Shown here: one piece after another, positions 1,886-7,723 of the stretch
How the letters are laid out: the number at the start of each line of letters is the position of its first letter
Position numbering within the stretch: position 1 is the stretch's first letter
Assembly: GCF_012910785.2 (NCBI RefSeq)
Contig: NZ_WTVH02000008.1
Coordinates: 620,001-684,000, forward strand
From: Aromatoleum buckelii
GTDB taxonomy: Bacteria > Pseudomonadota > Gammaproteobacteria > Burkholderiales > Rhodocyclaceae
Reading direction: 5' to 3'
DNA: 64,000 nucleotides
Notes under the pieces: model-generated
The model's input: the letters and a program-made list of their open reading frames with translations, nothing else
What the model was told of the DNA's origin: nothing
The model's database searches: none
Position numbers and translations under genes: made by a program

Positions 1886-2443
1886 TCAGCCGAGATCCGG
1901 CGCGACGAGGATGCGCCCGGCGCGGCGCCGGCCGGCGAATGCGCCCGGCGTGCCCTGCCCGCCATGCGCGTGGCAGATCGCGCACGCGAGCGCGTCGGCC
2001 GCGTCCGGGCTCGGGCAGCCATCGAGCACCAGCAGCCGCTGCACCATGTGCTGGACCTGCTCTTTGGCCGCCTTGCCGTAGCCGACGACCGCCTGCTTGA
2101 CTTGCAGCGCCGTGTATTCATGCACCGGCAGGTCGCACGACACGGCGCCGCAGATCACCGCGCCGCGCGCCTGGCCGAGCAGCAACGTCGATTGCGGATT
2201 GACGTTGACGAACACTTTCTCGACCGCGACCTGGTCGGGCGTGTAGGCCGCGATGACTTCGCGCACGCCCTCGAGCAGCGTCTTCAGCCGTCCGGGCAAT
2301 TCGCCATCGCGCGTGCGGATGCAGCCGCTCGCGACGTAGCGCAGCTGATTGCCGAGCTTGTCGATGACGCCGAAGCCTGTGATGCGCAGCCCCGGATCGA
2401 GTCCGAGAATGCGGGTGGCAACGACGGTGGAAGCGCTTTTCAT
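1886..2443 (-). CDS. ruvC: Holliday junction endodeoxyribonuclease RuvC
   Basis: A 185-residue resolvase that cleaves four-way junctions symmetrically during recombination repair, acting with RuvAB. The four catalytic acids are all present with the exact E. coli spacing: D16 (in LGLDPG), E75 (in VAVEKVF), D147 and D150 (in [12 protein letters not shown]), against E. coli D7, E66, D138 and D141. The start at 2443 leaves a nine-residue N-terminal extension; an in-frame ATG at 2464 is also possible, and neither has a strong ribosome binding site. ruvA and ruvB are not beside it, and yebC, often next to ruvC, lies 6 kb away. Confidence 0.95.
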
Positions 2444-2588
2444 GCCGCGCATTCTACGGGCCATCGGGCAGCGGGGTCGAATCGTGGCAGCGGAGCGCGT
2501 CGTTCGTCCTGCGTGCAGCGCCGTACACGTGCAGGGTCAAGAACTCGCCGACCGGGCGGCGGTCACCCAGGAAGAGGGACGAGCGACG

Positions 2589-2765
2589 ATGATTCCGCAA
2601 TTGGATCGGGTGTATGTGATCGAGCTGTGCAGCGGCGAGTTGCGGCGTTGGCGTTTTCTCGGTCCGGGCCACCGCGAATCGGTGTGGTGGCGCGACGAGG
2701 AAACCGGGCGCACGTTCTCCGAAGCGAGCCTGATGTACGTCTGGGAGATCGTCGCGGAGGCGTGA
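2589..2765 (+). CDS. Small hypothetical protein (58 aa)
   Basis: A 58-residue soluble protein starting at ATG 2589, with a purine-rich GAAGAGGGA upstream. The frame is open further left, but the upstream part overlaps ruvC on the other strand and has no start signal. The protein is rich in aromatic and charged residues (several W, E and R; ends YVWEIVAEA) and has no membrane segment or Cys motif. It lies alone between divergent ruvC and the convergent sigma-54 regulator. No family recognised; third-position GC is like that of its neighbours, so it is probably a real native gene. Confidence 0.6.
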   Translation: MIPQLDRVYVIELCSGELRRWRFLGPGHRESVWWRDEETGRTFSEASLMYVWEIVAEA

Positions 2766-2877
2766 ACAGACCGGAAGCGCGGGCGCAGGCGCTTTTTCGC
2801 AGTCGCCCGGCCTGCCGTTTGTCGCCGAACGTCATTCAAGGAGCCCTGAGCCCGCACGCGACGCCAATCGTGGCCGC

Positions 2878-4224
2878 TCAGTTCCGGTTGAGCCGCTTCC
2901 ACAAGGTCGTGCGCGACATGCCGAGTCGGCGCGCCGCTTCCGCCCGGTTGCCGCCGCACTGCTCGAGCATGCGCTGGATCTGTGCCTGCTCCTCGTCAGG
3001 CGTCACCTGCGTCGCGTAGTAGCGCGTCAGCGGCAGTGGCAGCAGCACCTCGTGCGTCGATTCGACGGGGGCCACGACTTCGGGCAGCAGGTGCTGCGGC
3101 AGGATCGTCGCCCCGTCGGAATTGACGACCGCATATTCGAGGGCGTTGAACAGCTGCCGCACGTTGCCCGGCCAGTGGTAAGACTCCATCGCCACGATCG
3201 CCTCCGGCGACAGCCGCAGGTCGGGCCGGCGGTAGCGTTCGCCGAGTTCGCCGAGCAGGCGGCTCGCGAGCAGCGCGATGTCCTCGCGGCGCTCGCGCAG
3301 CGCCGGCACGTGCAGCGGCAGCACGTGCAAGCGGTAATACAGATCTTCGCGGAACTCCCCACGGCCGACCATCCCGGCGATGTCGCGATGGGTTGCGGCG
3401 ACGACGCGCACATCGACTTTGCGCGGATGGTTCTCGCCGACGCGCACGATTTCGCGCTCCTGCAGCACGCGCAGCAACCGGGTCTGTGTTGCCGGAGAAA
3501 TCTCGCCGATCTCGTCGAGCAGCAACGTGCCGCCGTTGGCGGCTTCGAAGCGGCCGAGGCGAGCTCCGGTTGCGCCGGAAAACGAGCCTTTGGCGTGGCC
3601 GAAGAGTTCTGATTCCTGCAGGTTTTCCGGCAGCGACGCGCAATGCACGGCGACGTAAGGGCCTTTCGCGCGCGCCGAGTTGTCGTGCAGCGCGCGCGCA
3701 ACCAGTTCCTTGCCGACGCCGCTTTCGCCGGTGATCAGCACGTTGGCTTCACTCGCCGCGACGCGCAGCACTTTCTGGTAGAGGTCCTGCATCGCGCGGC
3801 TGCGCCCGGTCAGCCCGCCGAGCTGCCAGCGGTCGCGCACTTCGGCTTCGAGTTCGACTTCGCGCGAGCGGTCGCGCAGCACGATCGCGCAGTACAGCCC
3901 GGAATCGTTCGGCGGTAGCAGCATCGCCCACATGCGCAGCGGAATGTCGACGCCGCTGGGCGAGCGCACGATGATGTCCTGGACCTTGTCGTCCTCGCCC
4001 TTTGCCGGGGTCAGCGAACATTCTCCGCGCGCTTCACAGGCCCGGGCACACTCGGTGCCCCGGAACAGCGTCGGACACAGTTCGTCGACGAGGCGCCGGT
4101 CGTCGTGCCCGATCATCCGCGCGGCTGCGCTGTTCATCTCGAGGACGCGGCGCGCCCGATCGAGAAACAGCACGCCTTCTTCGAGGCTGTCGAGAAATAC
4201 TCGCAGGGTTGCCAGACTCGGCAT
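2878..4224 (-). CDS. Sigma-54-dependent activator with Cys-rich PAS domain, likely regulator of the adjacent NO reductase operon
   Basis: A 448-residue bacterial enhancer-binding protein. Residues 5-125 form a PAS sensor domain with four cysteines (C50, C59, C63, C69), residues 137-370 an AAA+ domain, and the last 30 residues a Fis-type helix-turn-helix ([20 protein letters not shown]). Walker A is GESGVGKE (166-173) and Walker B is LLLDEIGE (234-241). The sigma-54 contact loop reads GSFSGA (213-218) instead of the usual GAFTGA. It is transcribed divergently from the heme-copper oxidoreductase operon, and the region between them carries palindromic half-sites and a -24/-12 promoter. Control of that operon is inferred from this layout. 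The cysteines might bind iron or an Fe-S cluster and sense NO or redox state; this is speculation. Confidence 0.9.
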
Positions 4225-4240
4225 CTGAATCCTCCTTTTT

Positions 4241-4273
4241 GTTCAGACTGAACGTCCAGAGCGAACGTTCAGT
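4241..4273 (+). promoter_or_regulatory. Candidate enhancer (UAS) for the sigma-54 activator: three alternating GTTCAG half-sites
   Basis: GTTCAG-A-CTGAAC (4241-4253) is a perfect palindrome. A third copy, GTTCAG at 4267-4272, makes a second, wider inverted repeat: ACTGAACGT (4247-4255) against ACGTTCAGT (4265-4273). The cluster is 71-103 bases upstream of the -24 element at 4344 and 17 bases from the activator's own start codon. That is the usual distance for an enhancer-binding protein site and would also allow autoregulation. Confidence 0.6.
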
Positions 4274-4315
4274 TTCTCCTCCACAACATTCCAGCAGCTA
4301 AGCGCTGCGCGAAAA

Positions 4316-4329
4316 ATGATTGTGATCAA
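4316..4329 (+). promoter_or_regulatory. FNR/Anr/Dnr-like box
   Basis: ATGAT-TGTG-ATCAA matches the FNR/Dnr consensus TTGAT-N4-ATCAA at 9 of 10 positions. It lies between the presumed enhancer and the -24/-12 promoter of the NO reductase-like operon, 15 bases upstream of the -24 element. An oxygen- or NO-responsive CRP/FNR-family input is therefore plausible. The site is read from sequence only. Confidence 0.5.
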
Positions 4330-4343
4330 TGATTTGCTAGATG

Positions 4344-4359
4344 TGGCACAGTGCTGGCT
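4344..4359 (+). promoter_or_regulatory. Sigma-54 (-24/-12) promoter of the norSY-like operon
   Basis: TGGCACA-GTGC-TGGCT fits the sigma-54 consensus TGGCACG-N4-TTGCW with perfect -24 (TGGCAC), correct spacing, and one mismatch in the -12 element (TGGC for TTGC). Transcription would start near 4371, about 48 bases before the GTG start at 4419. The divergent sigma-54 activator gene next door strengthens the call. Confidence 0.65.
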
Positions 4360-4418
4360 AAGAGAATGCTAGGGGGACGGCTTGTCCCGAAGACGATCGC
4401 ATGACAGGAGAATCCACC

Positions 4419-4949
4419 GTGCAACCAATCGCTTGGCAAATATCGCTCGTGCTGATGGCACTCGTCGCGTTCGGCTTTGCCTTTGTCGCCATCAATTCCG
4501 GGCGGCGCCAGGAAGATTATTCGCCGCTGCAGAAGAGCGCCTATCGCCTGCGCTCGCGCCTTTTCTGGGGCCTGGTGCTGGTGTTCGGCCCGGCGATGAT
4601 CTACACGCTGTTCGAACTGCCGTACGACGCGGCGCGGGCCAACACCGGGGCGGGCCCGGTACAGGTCGTCGACGCGACAGGCTACCAGTGGCGCTGGGAA
4701 CTCAGCCAGGATCACGTCGCCGTCGGCCAGCCGGTCGAGTTCCGCGTCACCAGCGCCGATGTCAATCACGGCTTCGGCATTTACGACGCGAACCTGCACC
4801 TGGTCGCGCAGACGCAGGCGATGCCCGGCTACACCAACACGCTGCGTCACACTTTCAGCGAGGAAGGGACATACAAGATCCTGTGCATGGAGTACTGCGG
4901 CCTCGCGCACCACAACATGTTGACCGAAATCCGGGTCGGCGCTCAGTAA
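4419..4949 (+). CDS. norS: CuA-containing subunit II of heme-copper NO reductase (NorS-like)
   Basis: A 176-residue membrane-anchored cupredoxin that passes electrons from a periplasmic donor to the catalytic subunit. The GTG at 4419 is chosen because AGGAG at 4406-4410 sits 8 bases before it; the upstream in-frame ATG at 4401 overlaps that site. Two membrane helices lie near residues 5-25 and 45-65. All CuA ligands are visible: H117, C156, E158, C160, H164 and M167 (C-M-E-Y-C-G-L-A-H-H-N-M). It is followed after 14 bases by the catalytic subunit. Subunit II with this short architecture followed by subunit I, SenC and a membrane protein matches norSY-senC-orf1 of ammonia oxidisers. Confidence 0.8.
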   Translation: MQPIAWQISLVLMALVAFGFAFVAINSGRRQEDYSPLQKSAYRLRSRLFWGLVLVFGPAMIYTLFELPYDAARANTGAGPVQVVDATGYQWRWELSQDHVAVGQPVEFRVTSADVNHGFGIYDANLHLVAQTQAMPGYTNTLRHTFSEEGTYKILCMEYCGLAHHNMLTEIRVGAQ

Positions 4950-4963
4950 CGGAGGAGACGAAC

Positions 4964-6451
4964 GTGGCGACCTACACTTACGAACATATTCCCGACCAGG
5001 GAGCGAAGGCCGGCGTGCTGGCCTACCTCGCGACATCGGCCGTCGTGCTGCTGCTGATGATGGTCTTCGGCCTGCTGATGCGGCTCGAGCAGGCGCAGTG
5101 GATCTCGATCGGCGCGATCCGCTTTTACGAACTGATGACCTTGCATGGCGCCGGCATGGTCGGCATCGCGGCGATCGCCGGCGCGTCGATCATGTGGCAC
5201 TTCCTGCGCCAGTACGTCGACCTGTCGTCGCGTATCTTCGTCGCGAACCTCGTTTTGTTCCTCGTCGGCGTCGTGATGATCCTCGGCAGCGTGCTGCTCG
5301 GGCATTTCCACGGCGCGTGGACGTTCCTCTACCCGCTGCCCGGCAAGTCGATGGGCTTGTGGAGCCCCGGTGCGGCGGCGCTTTTCATGGGCGGGCTGCT
5401 CGTCATCGGCGTCGGCTTCCTGCTGCTGCACCTCGACATCGCGCGTGCGCTCGTCGCGCGCTACGGCAACTTCTCGCGCGCGCTCGGCTGGCCGCAGCTC
5501 TTCGGCCACGATGACGGAAAGGCCCCGCCGCCGACCGTGGTCGCGAGCGCAATGGTCACCGTCGTCAACGTCATCGGCCTGGTCGTCGGTGCGAGCATCC
5601 TGGCGATGATGCTGGTGAACCTTTACGTGCCCGAGTTCGACATCGATCCGCTTCTCGCGAAAGGCATGATCTACTTCTTCGGCCACATCTTCATCAACGC
5701 GACGATCTACATGGCGGTGATCGGCGTCTACGAGATCCTGCCGCGCTACACGCAGCGCCCGTGGAAGTCGAACAAGGTGTTCCTCGCGTCGTGGACTGCG
5801 TCGACGCTGATGGTGATGTTCATCTTCCCGCACCACCTGCTGATGGACTTTGCGTTCCCGAAGTGGATGCTCATCATGGGCCACATTATCGGCTACCTGA
5901 ACACCGTGCCGATCCTCGTCGTCACCGGCTACGGCGCGCTGATGATCGTGTATCGCTCGGGCATCCGCTGGGACATGGGGTCGAAGCTGCTGTTCCTGTC
6001 GCTGTTCGGCTGGGCGGCGGGCGCGATGCCGGCGTTCATCGACGGCACCATCACCGTCAACTACGTGATGCACAACACCCTGTGGGTGCCCGGCCACTTC
6101 CATACCTACCTGCTGCTCGGCATGGTGACGATGGTGTTCGGCTTCATGTACTACCTCGGCAAACCGAGCCACGAGCACGACGATCACCTGATCGACCGCA
6201 TCGCGTTCTGGCTCTTCACGTCGTCGGTGCTCGGCTTCACGATGAGCTTCCTGTATTCGGGCAAGGAAAGCGTCGCGCGCCGCTACGCTGCCCACCTGCC
6301 CGAATGGGTGCCGTACGACCGCATCGCGTCGGTGTTCGCGGTGCTCGTGATCGCCTCGGCGCTGGTGTTCATCGGGCGCTTCTTCGCTCGCATCGGGCTC
6401 GCGCGCCATGACTACCAGCGCGCTCCGGTCGCGCGCAGCGTCGCCGCATGA
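4964..6451 (+). CDS. norY: Heme-copper oxidoreductase catalytic subunit I, probable NO reductase (NorY-like, sNOR family)
   Basis: A 495-residue, roughly 12-helix membrane enzyme starting at GTG 4964, with GGAGGAGA upstream. Metal ligands are present: low-spin heme H61 and H380, CuB ligands H241, H290 and H291, and high-spin heme H378 (PGHFHT). The position four residues after H241, which in oxygen-reducing oxidases holds the cross-linked tyrosine, is asparagine (H241-I-F-I-N245). Loss of this tyrosine and the gene order argue for nitric oxide reduction (2 NO to N2O) rather than O2 reduction. This is inferred: the sNOR assignment rests on gene order and recalled family knowledge, with no alignment done. 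An unusual oxidase remains possible. Confidence 0.75.
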   Translation: MATYTYEHIPDQGAKAGVLAYLATSAVVLLLMMVFGLLMRLEQAQWISIGAIRFYELMTLHGAGMVGIAAIAGASIMWHFLRQYVDLSSRIFVANLVLFLVGVVMILGSVLLGHFHGAWTFLYPLPGKSMGLWSPGAAALFMGGLLVIGVGFLLLHLDIARALVARYGNFSRALGWPQLFGHDDGKAPPPTVVASAMVTVVNVIGLVVGASILAMMLVNLYVPEFDIDPLLAKGMIYFFGHIFINATIYMAVIGVYEILPRYTQRPWKSNKVFLASWTASTLMVMFIFPHHLLMDFAFPKWMLIMGHIIGYLNTVPILVVTGYGALMIVYRSGIRWDMGSKLLFLSLFGWAAGAMPAFIDGTITVNYVMHNTLWVPGHFHTYLLLGMVTMVFGFMYYLGKPSHEHDDHLIDRIAFWLFTSSVLGFTMSFLYSGKESVARRYAAHLPEWVPYDRIASVFAVLVIASALVFIGRFFARIGLARHDYQRAPVARSVAA

Positions 6452-6461
6452 GTCCGGGTCG

Positions 6462-7076
6462 ATGAGTGACGCCGCGCGCAGCGTCGTCCTGACGGTGCTG
6501 GTGACCGTTCTCGGCACCGGCGCTTTCTGGTGGGGAACCGACGGTTTCAGCGCTTTTACCGCTGAAACCGCCCGCCGGGCCGACATCCTGCGCGCGCCAC
6601 GCCCGCTGCCTGCGGCCGTCCTCGAAGACCAGGACGGCCGTGTTTTCCGGCTCGACGATTACCGCGGACGCTTGCTCGCAGTCGAGTTCATCTACACGCG
6701 CTGCACGACGATCTGCCGCAGCCTCGGCATGGCGTTCAAACAGATCCGCGACCGCGTGCCGCCCGACGCCCTCGGGCGCGACGTGGCGCTGCTGAGCATC
6801 AGCTTCGACCCCGAGCGCGACGATCCGGCGAGTCTCAAGATCTACGGCGGCAGTCACGGCGCCGATGGCGAGCACTGGCGCATCGCGCGAGTGCGGGACG
6901 CGGCGCAGCTGCAGGCGCTTCTCGATGCTTTCGGCGTCGTCGTGATCCCGGACCGTTTCGGCGGGTTCGAGCACAACGCGGCGATCCACCTCGTCGGCCG
7001 CGACGGGCGGCTCGTCGAAATCAGCGATCTCGAAGCGCCGCTGCAGTTTGCCGAGAAGCTCGCGGAGGCGCTGTGA
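6462..7076 (+). CDS. senC: SCO1/SenC-family copper chaperone
   Basis: A 204-residue thioredoxin-fold protein anchored by one N-terminal helix (VVLTVLVTVLGTGAFWW) with the catalytic domain in the periplasm. Copper ligands are the CxxxC pair in YTRCTTICRS and the later histidine in GFEHNAAIH. The proline that usually follows the second cysteine is absent. Family members deliver copper to the CuA centre of the adjacent subunit II or keep its cysteines reduced. It begins 10 bases after subunit I and overlaps the next gene by 4 bases, so the four genes are one transcription unit. Confidence 0.85.
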   Translation: MSDAARSVVLTVLVTVLGTGAFWWGTDGFSAFTAETARRADILRAPRPLPAAVLEDQDGRVFRLDDYRGRLLAVEFIYTRCTTICRSLGMAFKQIRDRVPPDALGRDVALLSISFDPERDDPASLKIYGGSHGADGEHWRIARVRDAAQLQALLDAFGVVVIPDRFGGFEHNAAIHLVGRDGRLVEISDLEAPLQFAEKLAEAL

Positions 7077-7723
7077 TCGCCGCGCTCGCCCGTCCGCAAG
7101 TGGGTTTTCGCGTGCTCGGCGCGCTGTATCTGCTGCTCGCGGCGCCGCCGCTGCGCACCTCGCTCGAAGCGACGATGAGCGGCCACATGCTGGTGCAGAT
7201 TCCGCTTCTCGCCGCGATCGGCTTCGTCGCCTGCCGCCTGCTGCCCGTAGCGCGGCAGGAGCGCTTGCTCGACGCGGGCGGCGGTGCTGTGCCGTATGTC
7301 GTGCTGGTGGTCTTCGCGTCGACGTGGTGGATGCTGCCGCGTGCGCTCGACGACGCGCTTGCGAGCCCGCTCGTCGAAGCGGCGAAGTTCATCAGCCTGC
7401 CCCTGCTCGTCGGGCTGCCGCTCGCGCTGGCGTGGCGTCGGCTCGGGCCGATCGGCCGCGGCTTCGTCTGGACCAACTTCATCAGCATGCTTGCGGTGCT
7501 CGGCTGGCTGTACATTGCCGCGCCGGTGCGCGTGTGCAACAGCTACCTCGTCGACCAGCAGGAAAGCGCCGGCTGGCTGATGGTGAAGCTCGCGCTGCTG
7601 CTGTTCGCCGGTTGGCTCGCCAGCCTGTTCGTCGGCGGCGGCGGAAACCCCGCGCTGTCCACTGCGGAGCAGGTTGCGCCCCCACCGGCACCGAGCCGCG
7701 ACTGCGGCCCGGAGCGCAACTGA
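7073..7723 (+). CDS. Membrane protein of the norSY-senC-orf1 cluster (Orf1)
   Basis: A 216-residue integral membrane protein with about six helices, starting at a GTG whose last two bases overlap the senC stop. The segment MSGHMLVQIPLL (H38) resembles the conserved HM..Q helix of CtaG-type oxidase assembly proteins. Further conserved-looking elements are TWWMLPRALDD and a single Cys near NSYLVDQQ. The soluble tail is Pro/Ala rich. In ammonia oxidisers the fourth gene of the norSY-senC-orf1 cluster is an uncharacterised membrane protein at the same position. A role in maturation of the copper enzyme is inferred. It converges on the EamA gene with an 8-base gap. Confidence 0.7.
   Translation: MIAALARPQVGFRVLGALYLLLAAPPLRTSLEATMSGHMLVQIPLLAAIGFVACRLLPVARQERLLDAGGGAVPYVVLVVFASTWWMLPRALDDALASPLVEAAKFISLPLLVGLPLALAWRRLGPIGRGFVWTNFISMLAVLGWLYIAAPVRVCNSYLVDQQESAGWLMVKLALLLFAGWLASLFVGGGGNPALSTAEQVAPPPAPSRDCGPERN

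Follow-up and report, generated by a model that had tools for sequence, protein, structure and literature searches.

A probable second nitric oxide reductase of the sNOR type in Aromatoleum buckelii, with an apparently dedicated sigma54 switch

We analysed a 64 kb stretch of the genome of the denitrifying bacterium Aromatoleum buckelii (assembly GCF_012910785.2, contig NZ_WTVH02000008.1, positions 620,001 to 684,000; hereafter the window; genome size 4.16 Mb), in which four head-to-tail frames on the forward strand form a norS-norY-senC-orf1 operon. The norS gene (4419-4949) encodes a CuA subunit II (Pfam COX2, E-value 1.1 × 10−6). Its best start is the GTG at 4419, with AGGAGA just 5' of it, and the frame has an alternative opening at ATG 4401. 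The norY gene (4964-6451, GTG start) encodes a catalytic heme-copper subunit I with asparagine at position 245 (Pfam COX1, E-value 1.3 × 10−48). It is followed by senC (6462-7076, from about ATG 6462), whose product resembles the SCO1/SenC copper chaperones (Pfam SCO1-SenC, E-value 2.6 × 10−15), and by orf1 (7073-7723, GTG start), which encodes a membrane protein that is conserved with the cluster and matched no Pfam family. Its sequence features make the enzyme an ordinary member of the proposed sNOR family of nitric oxide (NO) reductases. This enzyme is already known; the new element is what appears to be a dedicated sigma54 switch, encoded divergently from norS.

The conservation of the operon was examined in 81 sNOR loci, which comprised the best 80 of 495 relative-encoding places from a profile scan of named genomes, together with Ruegeria pomeroyi. 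On the same strand as the NorY gene, NorS was found beside it at 80 of the 81 loci, SenC at 78 and orf1 at 80, some contigs being cut. The arrangement is not due to chance. Six CuA ligands were found in NorS (H123, C162, E164, C166, H170 and M173, numbered from ATG 4401), each kept in 79-80 of 80 rows, which agrees with the full CuA site that an earlier note on this DNA had claimed. SenC residues C81, C85 and H171 were invariant in 78 of 78 rows, as were W86, P89, K105, R153, C155 and Q163 of orf1 in 79 of 79. The same note had likened the gene order to that of ammonia-oxidising bacteria, and this likeness was confirmed, with NorY of Nitrosospira multiformis and N. briensis being 80-81% identical to the protein in the window. 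In the available parts of PMC4940428 and PMC4964001, the norSY-senC-orf1 order is named for Nitrosospira (including N. briensis) and Nitrosomonas.

The active site of NorY was then compared in an alignment of 82 rows (the window and the 81 loci). All six ligand histidines (H61, H241, H290, H291, H378 and H380) were found; H61 was histidine in 81 rows with one gap, and the other five were histidine in all 82. Asparagine 245, within H241-IFI-N245, takes the place of the tyrosine that is cross-linked in oxygen reductases, and position 245 was N in 81 rows and X in one. Both the histidines and the asparagine had been read correctly in the earlier note. In Table A4 of PMC8756737 (modified from Hemp and Gennis), as far as that source was available, sNOR is given N at the tyrosine position.

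A PMSF (posterior mean site frequency) tree was built from 60 subunits I out of 128 collected proteins, 48 extra subunit-I frames having been read. Left out were L116, L117, L121, L159 and L160, which were dropped, L126, L131, L135, L138 and L141 as second copies, and further close or surplus rows that were not picked. The labels ba3-like, bNOR-like, qNOR and cNorB are our own, given by motif, genus and position in the tree and independent of record annotation. NorY, all the sNOR rows and two distant rows that also bear Asn formed one clade (support 100/100), which holds Nitrosospira, Nitrosomonas, Bacillaceae and Ruegeria rows. The nearest named rows to NorY were from Aromatoleum, Noviherbaspirillum, Ramlibacter and Sulfuritalea, and Nitrosospira joins them in a group of nine (95/94). 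The identity of NorY was 98% with A. anaerobium, 93-95% with A. diolicum, A. tolulyticum, A. evansii and others, and 54-55% with two Nitrosomonas proteins; 13 of the 17 genomes of the genus carry it, its own genome counted. The cNorB-type protein, the cbb3 oxidase and the three A-type oxidases of the same genome sit elsewhere in the tree. A position of subunit I inside a proven oxygen-reducing clade, which the earlier note had set beforehand as counting against it, was not seen. The deep joins between sNOR, A-type and ba3 rows are long branches, and no inference was taken from them.

Membership of other families was also considered and rejected. At the tyrosine position the cNorB-type L005 and the qNOR-type L137 have Glu (HLWVEG), which is not found in NorY, and eNOR would be expected to have Gln. 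The ba3-like rows L128 and L129, of the B-family oxygen reductases, keep the helix VI tyrosine where NorY has Asn245, and NorY lies outside the ba3/bNOR-like clade. An AlphaFold model (mean predicted local distance difference test score 79.6, predicted template modelling score 0.85) matched heme-copper oxidases generally. The 50 chains listed among its matches, with identities of 15-19%, were all A-type or quinol oxidases, so the model did not separate the families.

Tyr-bearing ba3-like rows and Asn-bearing bNOR-like rows (Neobacillus, Aquibacillus) formed a separate clade (100/99). Asparagine is therefore carried by two separate groups of the tree, and it may have replaced the cross-linking tyrosine twice, in the bNOR-like proteins (L133, L134) and in sNOR. 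Two distant subunits I of 32-34% identity, L146 (3875-5359, on a Thermomicrobium plasmid) and L034 (from G248), have asparagine at the same place and may represent a further Asn-bearing family. The L146 subunit I adjoins a subunit II gene and a formate/nitrite transporter gene.

The earlier note was silent on the regulator and the promoter of the operon. A predicted -24/-12 sigma54-type promoter, TGGCAC-N5-TGGCT, lies at 4344-4359 on the forward strand. The pattern TGGCAC-N5-TKGCW had no other match in the window (0.07 expected) and occurred in 7 of 100 shuffles. In the 26 regulator-bearing upstream regions the promoter score (maximum 11) was at least 10 in 21 and at least 9 in all 26, with 0.18 and 1.39 expected, and on the opposite strand no region reached either value. 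Among the 54 upstream regions without the regulator, none scored at least 10 and two scored 9.

A candidate upstream palindrome, GTTCAGACTGAACG, was found at 4241-4254 on the forward strand, 103 bases upstream of the -24 element, and behind it an imperfect repeat of the site extends to about 4272. The pattern GTTCA-N3-TGAAC, matched at 4241-4253, likewise had no other match in the window (0.03 expected; 3 of 100 shuffles). With a spacer of 2-3 bases the palindrome occurred in 22 of the 26 regulator-bearing regions (0.01 expected), and its distance to the -24 element was 100-111 bases in 20 of these 22, 77 in L062 and 92 in L065. The exact form was present at 20 of the 25 loci with the regulator and at 2 of the 56 without it. 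Where the regulator gene lies 5.6-5.7 kb downstream (L056, L077), the sites still stand before norS, so they are tied to the operon. A wider regulon was considered and rejected, since the A. buckelii genome has two palindrome matches against one for a reversed-pattern control, the second inside a cytochrome c-like coding frame.

Between these elements lies an IHF-like site, ATCAA-N4-TTG (4324-4336, forward strand; consensus from general knowledge), located 20 bases upstream of the -24 element. Such a site was present in 13 of the 26 regulator-bearing regions at 19-20 bases before the -24 element (0.04 expected). An FNR/DNR box before the promoter was the other candidate; its full form TTGAT-N4-ATCAA occurred in none of the 26 regions and the shorter form, TGAT-N4-ATCAA, in nine, so we prefer to read the element as a putative IHF site. 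Small frames lie between promoter and norS at some loci: in Ramlibacter (L048) the frame is cytochrome c-like, with CxxCH, and there are others in L042-L045, L058 and L060-L064, several of which look secreted and have a DPLxASFxRxL-like motif.

The regulator gene (2878-4224, reverse strand) encodes a sigma54-dependent activator with PAS, AAA+ and Fis-type helix-turn-helix domains (Pfam PAS_8, Sigma54_activat with E-value 1.7 × 10−68, and HTH_8). Its N-terminal PAS domain contains C50-x8-C59-x3-C63-x5-C69, and the four cysteines were invariant in all 26 aligned regulators, the window included. The AAA+ loop was GAFSGA in 16 of them, GSFSGA in eight and GAFTGA in two. Homologues of at least 546 bits were found at 25 of the 81 sNOR loci, in Aromatoleum, Sulfuritalea and other Rhodocyclales, in Noviherbaspirillum, Ramlibacter and other Burkholderiales, and in Thiobacillus and Thiohalobacter.

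The sensor domain had no paralogue in its own genome at an E-value of 0.001. A sample of 339 genomes from the class yielded it in two, its own and G433, both of which bear sNOR; it was not seen in the 12 other sNOR genomes of the class sample, but the two samples are possibly not the same. It was also absent (E-value 1 × 10−5) from all 11 genomes tested that have a regulator-less sNOR locus, six of Nitrosospira/Nitrosovibrio and five others, in a search that found three of three positive controls. Because Nitrosospira stands among regulator-bearing rows in the tree, loss of the regulator there would be the simplest account. A search of the available literature found no description of the regulator or its sites.

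As to the substrate of NorY, the sequence evidence leans towards NO. No conserved tyrosine was found in helix VII; the commonest was at position 288, which is tyrosine in 46 of the 82 rows, phenylalanine in 35 and valine in one. In cbb3 oxidases, a helix VII tyrosine stands in for the missing cross-link tyrosine. Rrf2 regulators were detected in the fetched flanks of at least 21 of the 56 loci that lack the sigma54 regulator and at least one of the 25 that carry it (L048, which has both), these neighbour counts being lower bounds from single-query phmmer (E-value 1 × 10−6) on flanks of unequal length. All 22 Rrf2 proteins, of which those of L074 and L075 are identical, carry three cysteines in the spacing of the NsrR motif, and of the 13 scored against family models 11 matched NsrR best and two RirA. 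NsrR-like regulators beside sNOR clusters elsewhere lean the same way. In the available part of PMC3772326, NsrR of Nitrosococcus oceani (Noc2967) is placed near the sNOR genes (Noc2969-2971). A flavohemoglobin adjoins cluster L084 and a RIC repair protein adjoins L114, both above their NCBIfam cut-offs; three truncated-globin matches, three CRP/FNR matches and one Hmp match (L046) are candidates by phmmer. The suggestion of the earlier note that this would be an extra NO reductase fits the rest of the genome, which also encodes a cNorB-type protein (L005, typed by its HLWVEG motif and tree position, with no NCBIfam match at 1 × 10−50) and Cytochrom_D1 (NirS-type) proteins.

The earlier note had further called the enzyme energy-conserving. 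In an alignment with the ba3 oxidase of Thermus thermophilus (ba3 numbering from general knowledge), Y237 corresponds to N245, Y244 to V252, Y248 to Y256, S309 to I317 and T312 to V320. One of the five K-path residues is kept (Y256 for Y248), so the term is not supported. Table A4 of PMC8756737, in the part available, likewise gives 0 predicted proton channels for sNOR and 1 each for eNOR and CuANOR. We consider NO removal a likelier role than proton pumping.

Taken together, we regard it as probable that the product of the operon is an sNOR-type enzyme, a second NO reductase in addition to cNOR, and that its expression is switched by the divergent four-Cys PAS sigma54 activator. The sequences show the order of the genes, the metal ligands, the clade of NorY, a conserved regulator and the arrangement of the sites; the substrate, the electron donor, the role of orf1, the PAS signal and the actual binding are inferred. 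The CuA site of NorS would take electrons from periplasmic cytochrome c and pass them through heme b to the heme-CuB site of NorY, where two NO would most likely be converted to nitrous oxide (N2O). Copper would be loaded by SenC, and orf1 could be an associated membrane subunit or an assembly factor. The PAS domain of the activator, probably an iron-sulphur (Fe-S) or metal site, would sense NO, oxygen or the redox state. The activator would bind the palindromic sites about 100 bases upstream, the DNA would be bent by IHF, and sigma54 polymerase would start at the -24/-12 element.

Several observations weigh against this explanation. The regulator is missing at 56 of the 81 sNOR loci, and within the 26 regulator-bearing regions the palindrome is missing in four and the IHF-like site in 13. 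The 26 regulator rows include eight from Aromatoleum (window included) and three from Sulfuritalea, so counts based on them overstate independence. The four-Cys PAS domain could equally sense oxygen instead. None of the 13 tested Rrf2 proteins reached the NsrR cut-off of 182 bits, the two RirA-like ones among them. NirS or NirK was weakly and not significantly enriched (8 of the 20 sNOR genomes versus 6 of the 36 controls; Fisher p = 0.10, with NirS counted above 400 bits or NirK above its cut-off). The two sets were unmatched, in that all controls were drawn from the class, while the sNOR genomes were found by searching the family and the phylum as well, and co-occurrence with nitrite reductases was rejected as an argument. 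The available part of PMC6967387 reports that the sNOR genes of N. europaea rose 2.7- to 10.8-fold under oxygen limitation and argues for an oxidase role; it also cites indirect evidence for NO reduction in Nitrococcus mobilis.

One alternative, which we consider unlikely, is that NorSY serves chiefly to reduce oxygen with high affinity when oxygen is limiting, and that it reduces NO as a side activity. The accessible text of PMC6967387 brings forward, besides the induction, a B-type affiliation and a heme-copper rather than heme-iron site, and 12 of the 20 sNOR genomes have no canonical NirS or NirK. However, asparagine replaces the cross-link tyrosine with no conserved helix VII substitute, the K-path counterparts are mostly missing, and NsrR-like regulators stand beside other sNOR clusters. 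In addition, the A. buckelii genome already has three A-type oxidases (two above the CtaD cut-off and one 1.4 bits below it) and one cbb3.

It seems improbable, too, that the regulator is a mere neighbour controlling something else while norSY is transcribed independently. Sigma54 activators are able to act on distant genes, Nitrosospira and the regulator-less loci keep the operon, and both the binding of the regulator and its control of norSY transcription are predictions. However, the -24/-12 element is directed only towards norS in all 26 regions, and at the loci with a displaced regulator gene the sites have remained in front of norS. The single further copy of the palindrome in the genome, inside a coding frame, and the restriction of the sensor to two sNOR-bearing genomes of the class sample also speak for a dedicated switch.

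The idea that the enzyme is an electrogenic NO reductase of the bNOR/CuANOR type, not sNOR, can be all but dismissed: bNOR of Bacillus, in the available literature excerpts, likewise has asparagine for tyrosine, a CuA subunit and senC and membrane protein neighbours, but the bNOR-like proteins of Neobacillus and Aquibacillus group with ba3-like rows outside the sNOR clade, the sNOR and bNOR-like genes of these two genomes are distinct, and CuANOR and sNOR differ in predicted proton channels.

The proposed system shares gene order, asparagine, CuA subunit II and tree clade with the sNOR of Nitrosospira, Nitrosomonas and Nitrosococcus. Unlike Aromatoleum, Nitrosospira and Nitrosovibrio lack the sensor in the six tested genomes and the palindrome at their loci. 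NsrR, an Rrf2 NO-sensing repressor that would give NO-linked control of sNOR in other lineages, belongs to a protein family unrelated to the regulator. N. oceani, by the excerpted source cited above, has this repressor close to its sNOR genes.

NorR has a GAF sensor domain and the binding site GT-N7-AC, whereas the Aromatoleum regulator has a four-Cys PAS domain and the site GTTCA-N3-TGAAC. Identification of the regulator as NorR was rejected: the NCBIfam NorR model gave 334.6 bits against a cut-off of 476, in the AAA+ and helix-turn-helix part only, and PAS was matched with no GAF listed. In the available part of PMC1274295, NorR is likewise a sigma54 AAA+ activator of an NO reductase, and upstream sites and a sigma54 promoter are part of that system too.

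A further suggestion, which we make tentatively and with some doubt, is that the regulator may be a new NO-responsive sigma54 type whose sensor is unrelated to that of NorR. In it, a four-Cys, probably Fe-S, PAS domain would read NO (or NO versus O2) with the sNOR operon as sole target, sNOR would be induced to scavenge NO when denitrifiers shift between oxic and anoxic conditions, and Nitrosospira would have dropped the switch. If the sensor is an Fe-S PAS domain, sigma54 control would gain another type of sensor for NO or O2. The sNOR family, known chiefly by sequence, was proposed as an NO reductase from ammonia-oxidiser genomes. Since many Aromatoleum species exist as cultured strains, the mapped promoter and regulator make it testable whether NO or low oxygen induces norSY. 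The enzyme would also be a second possible source of N2O, one missed by gene surveys that use cNOR and qNOR alone.

Some minor observations concern the surroundings of sNOR. A formate/nitrite-family match was found near 42 of the 81 loci, and the protein of this kind at L049 scored below the fnt cut-off (175 vs 232 bits). Beside a regulator-less sNOR cluster (NorY 83-84%), L040 has at 2379-5158 a second membrane frame resembling heme-copper oxidases and a CRP/FNR-type regulator frame. In the A. buckelii genome, four Cytochrom_D1 proteins, two above 500 bits, lie within 14 kb (G000:C2:738834-752299), and this cluster possibly contains two nirS copies.

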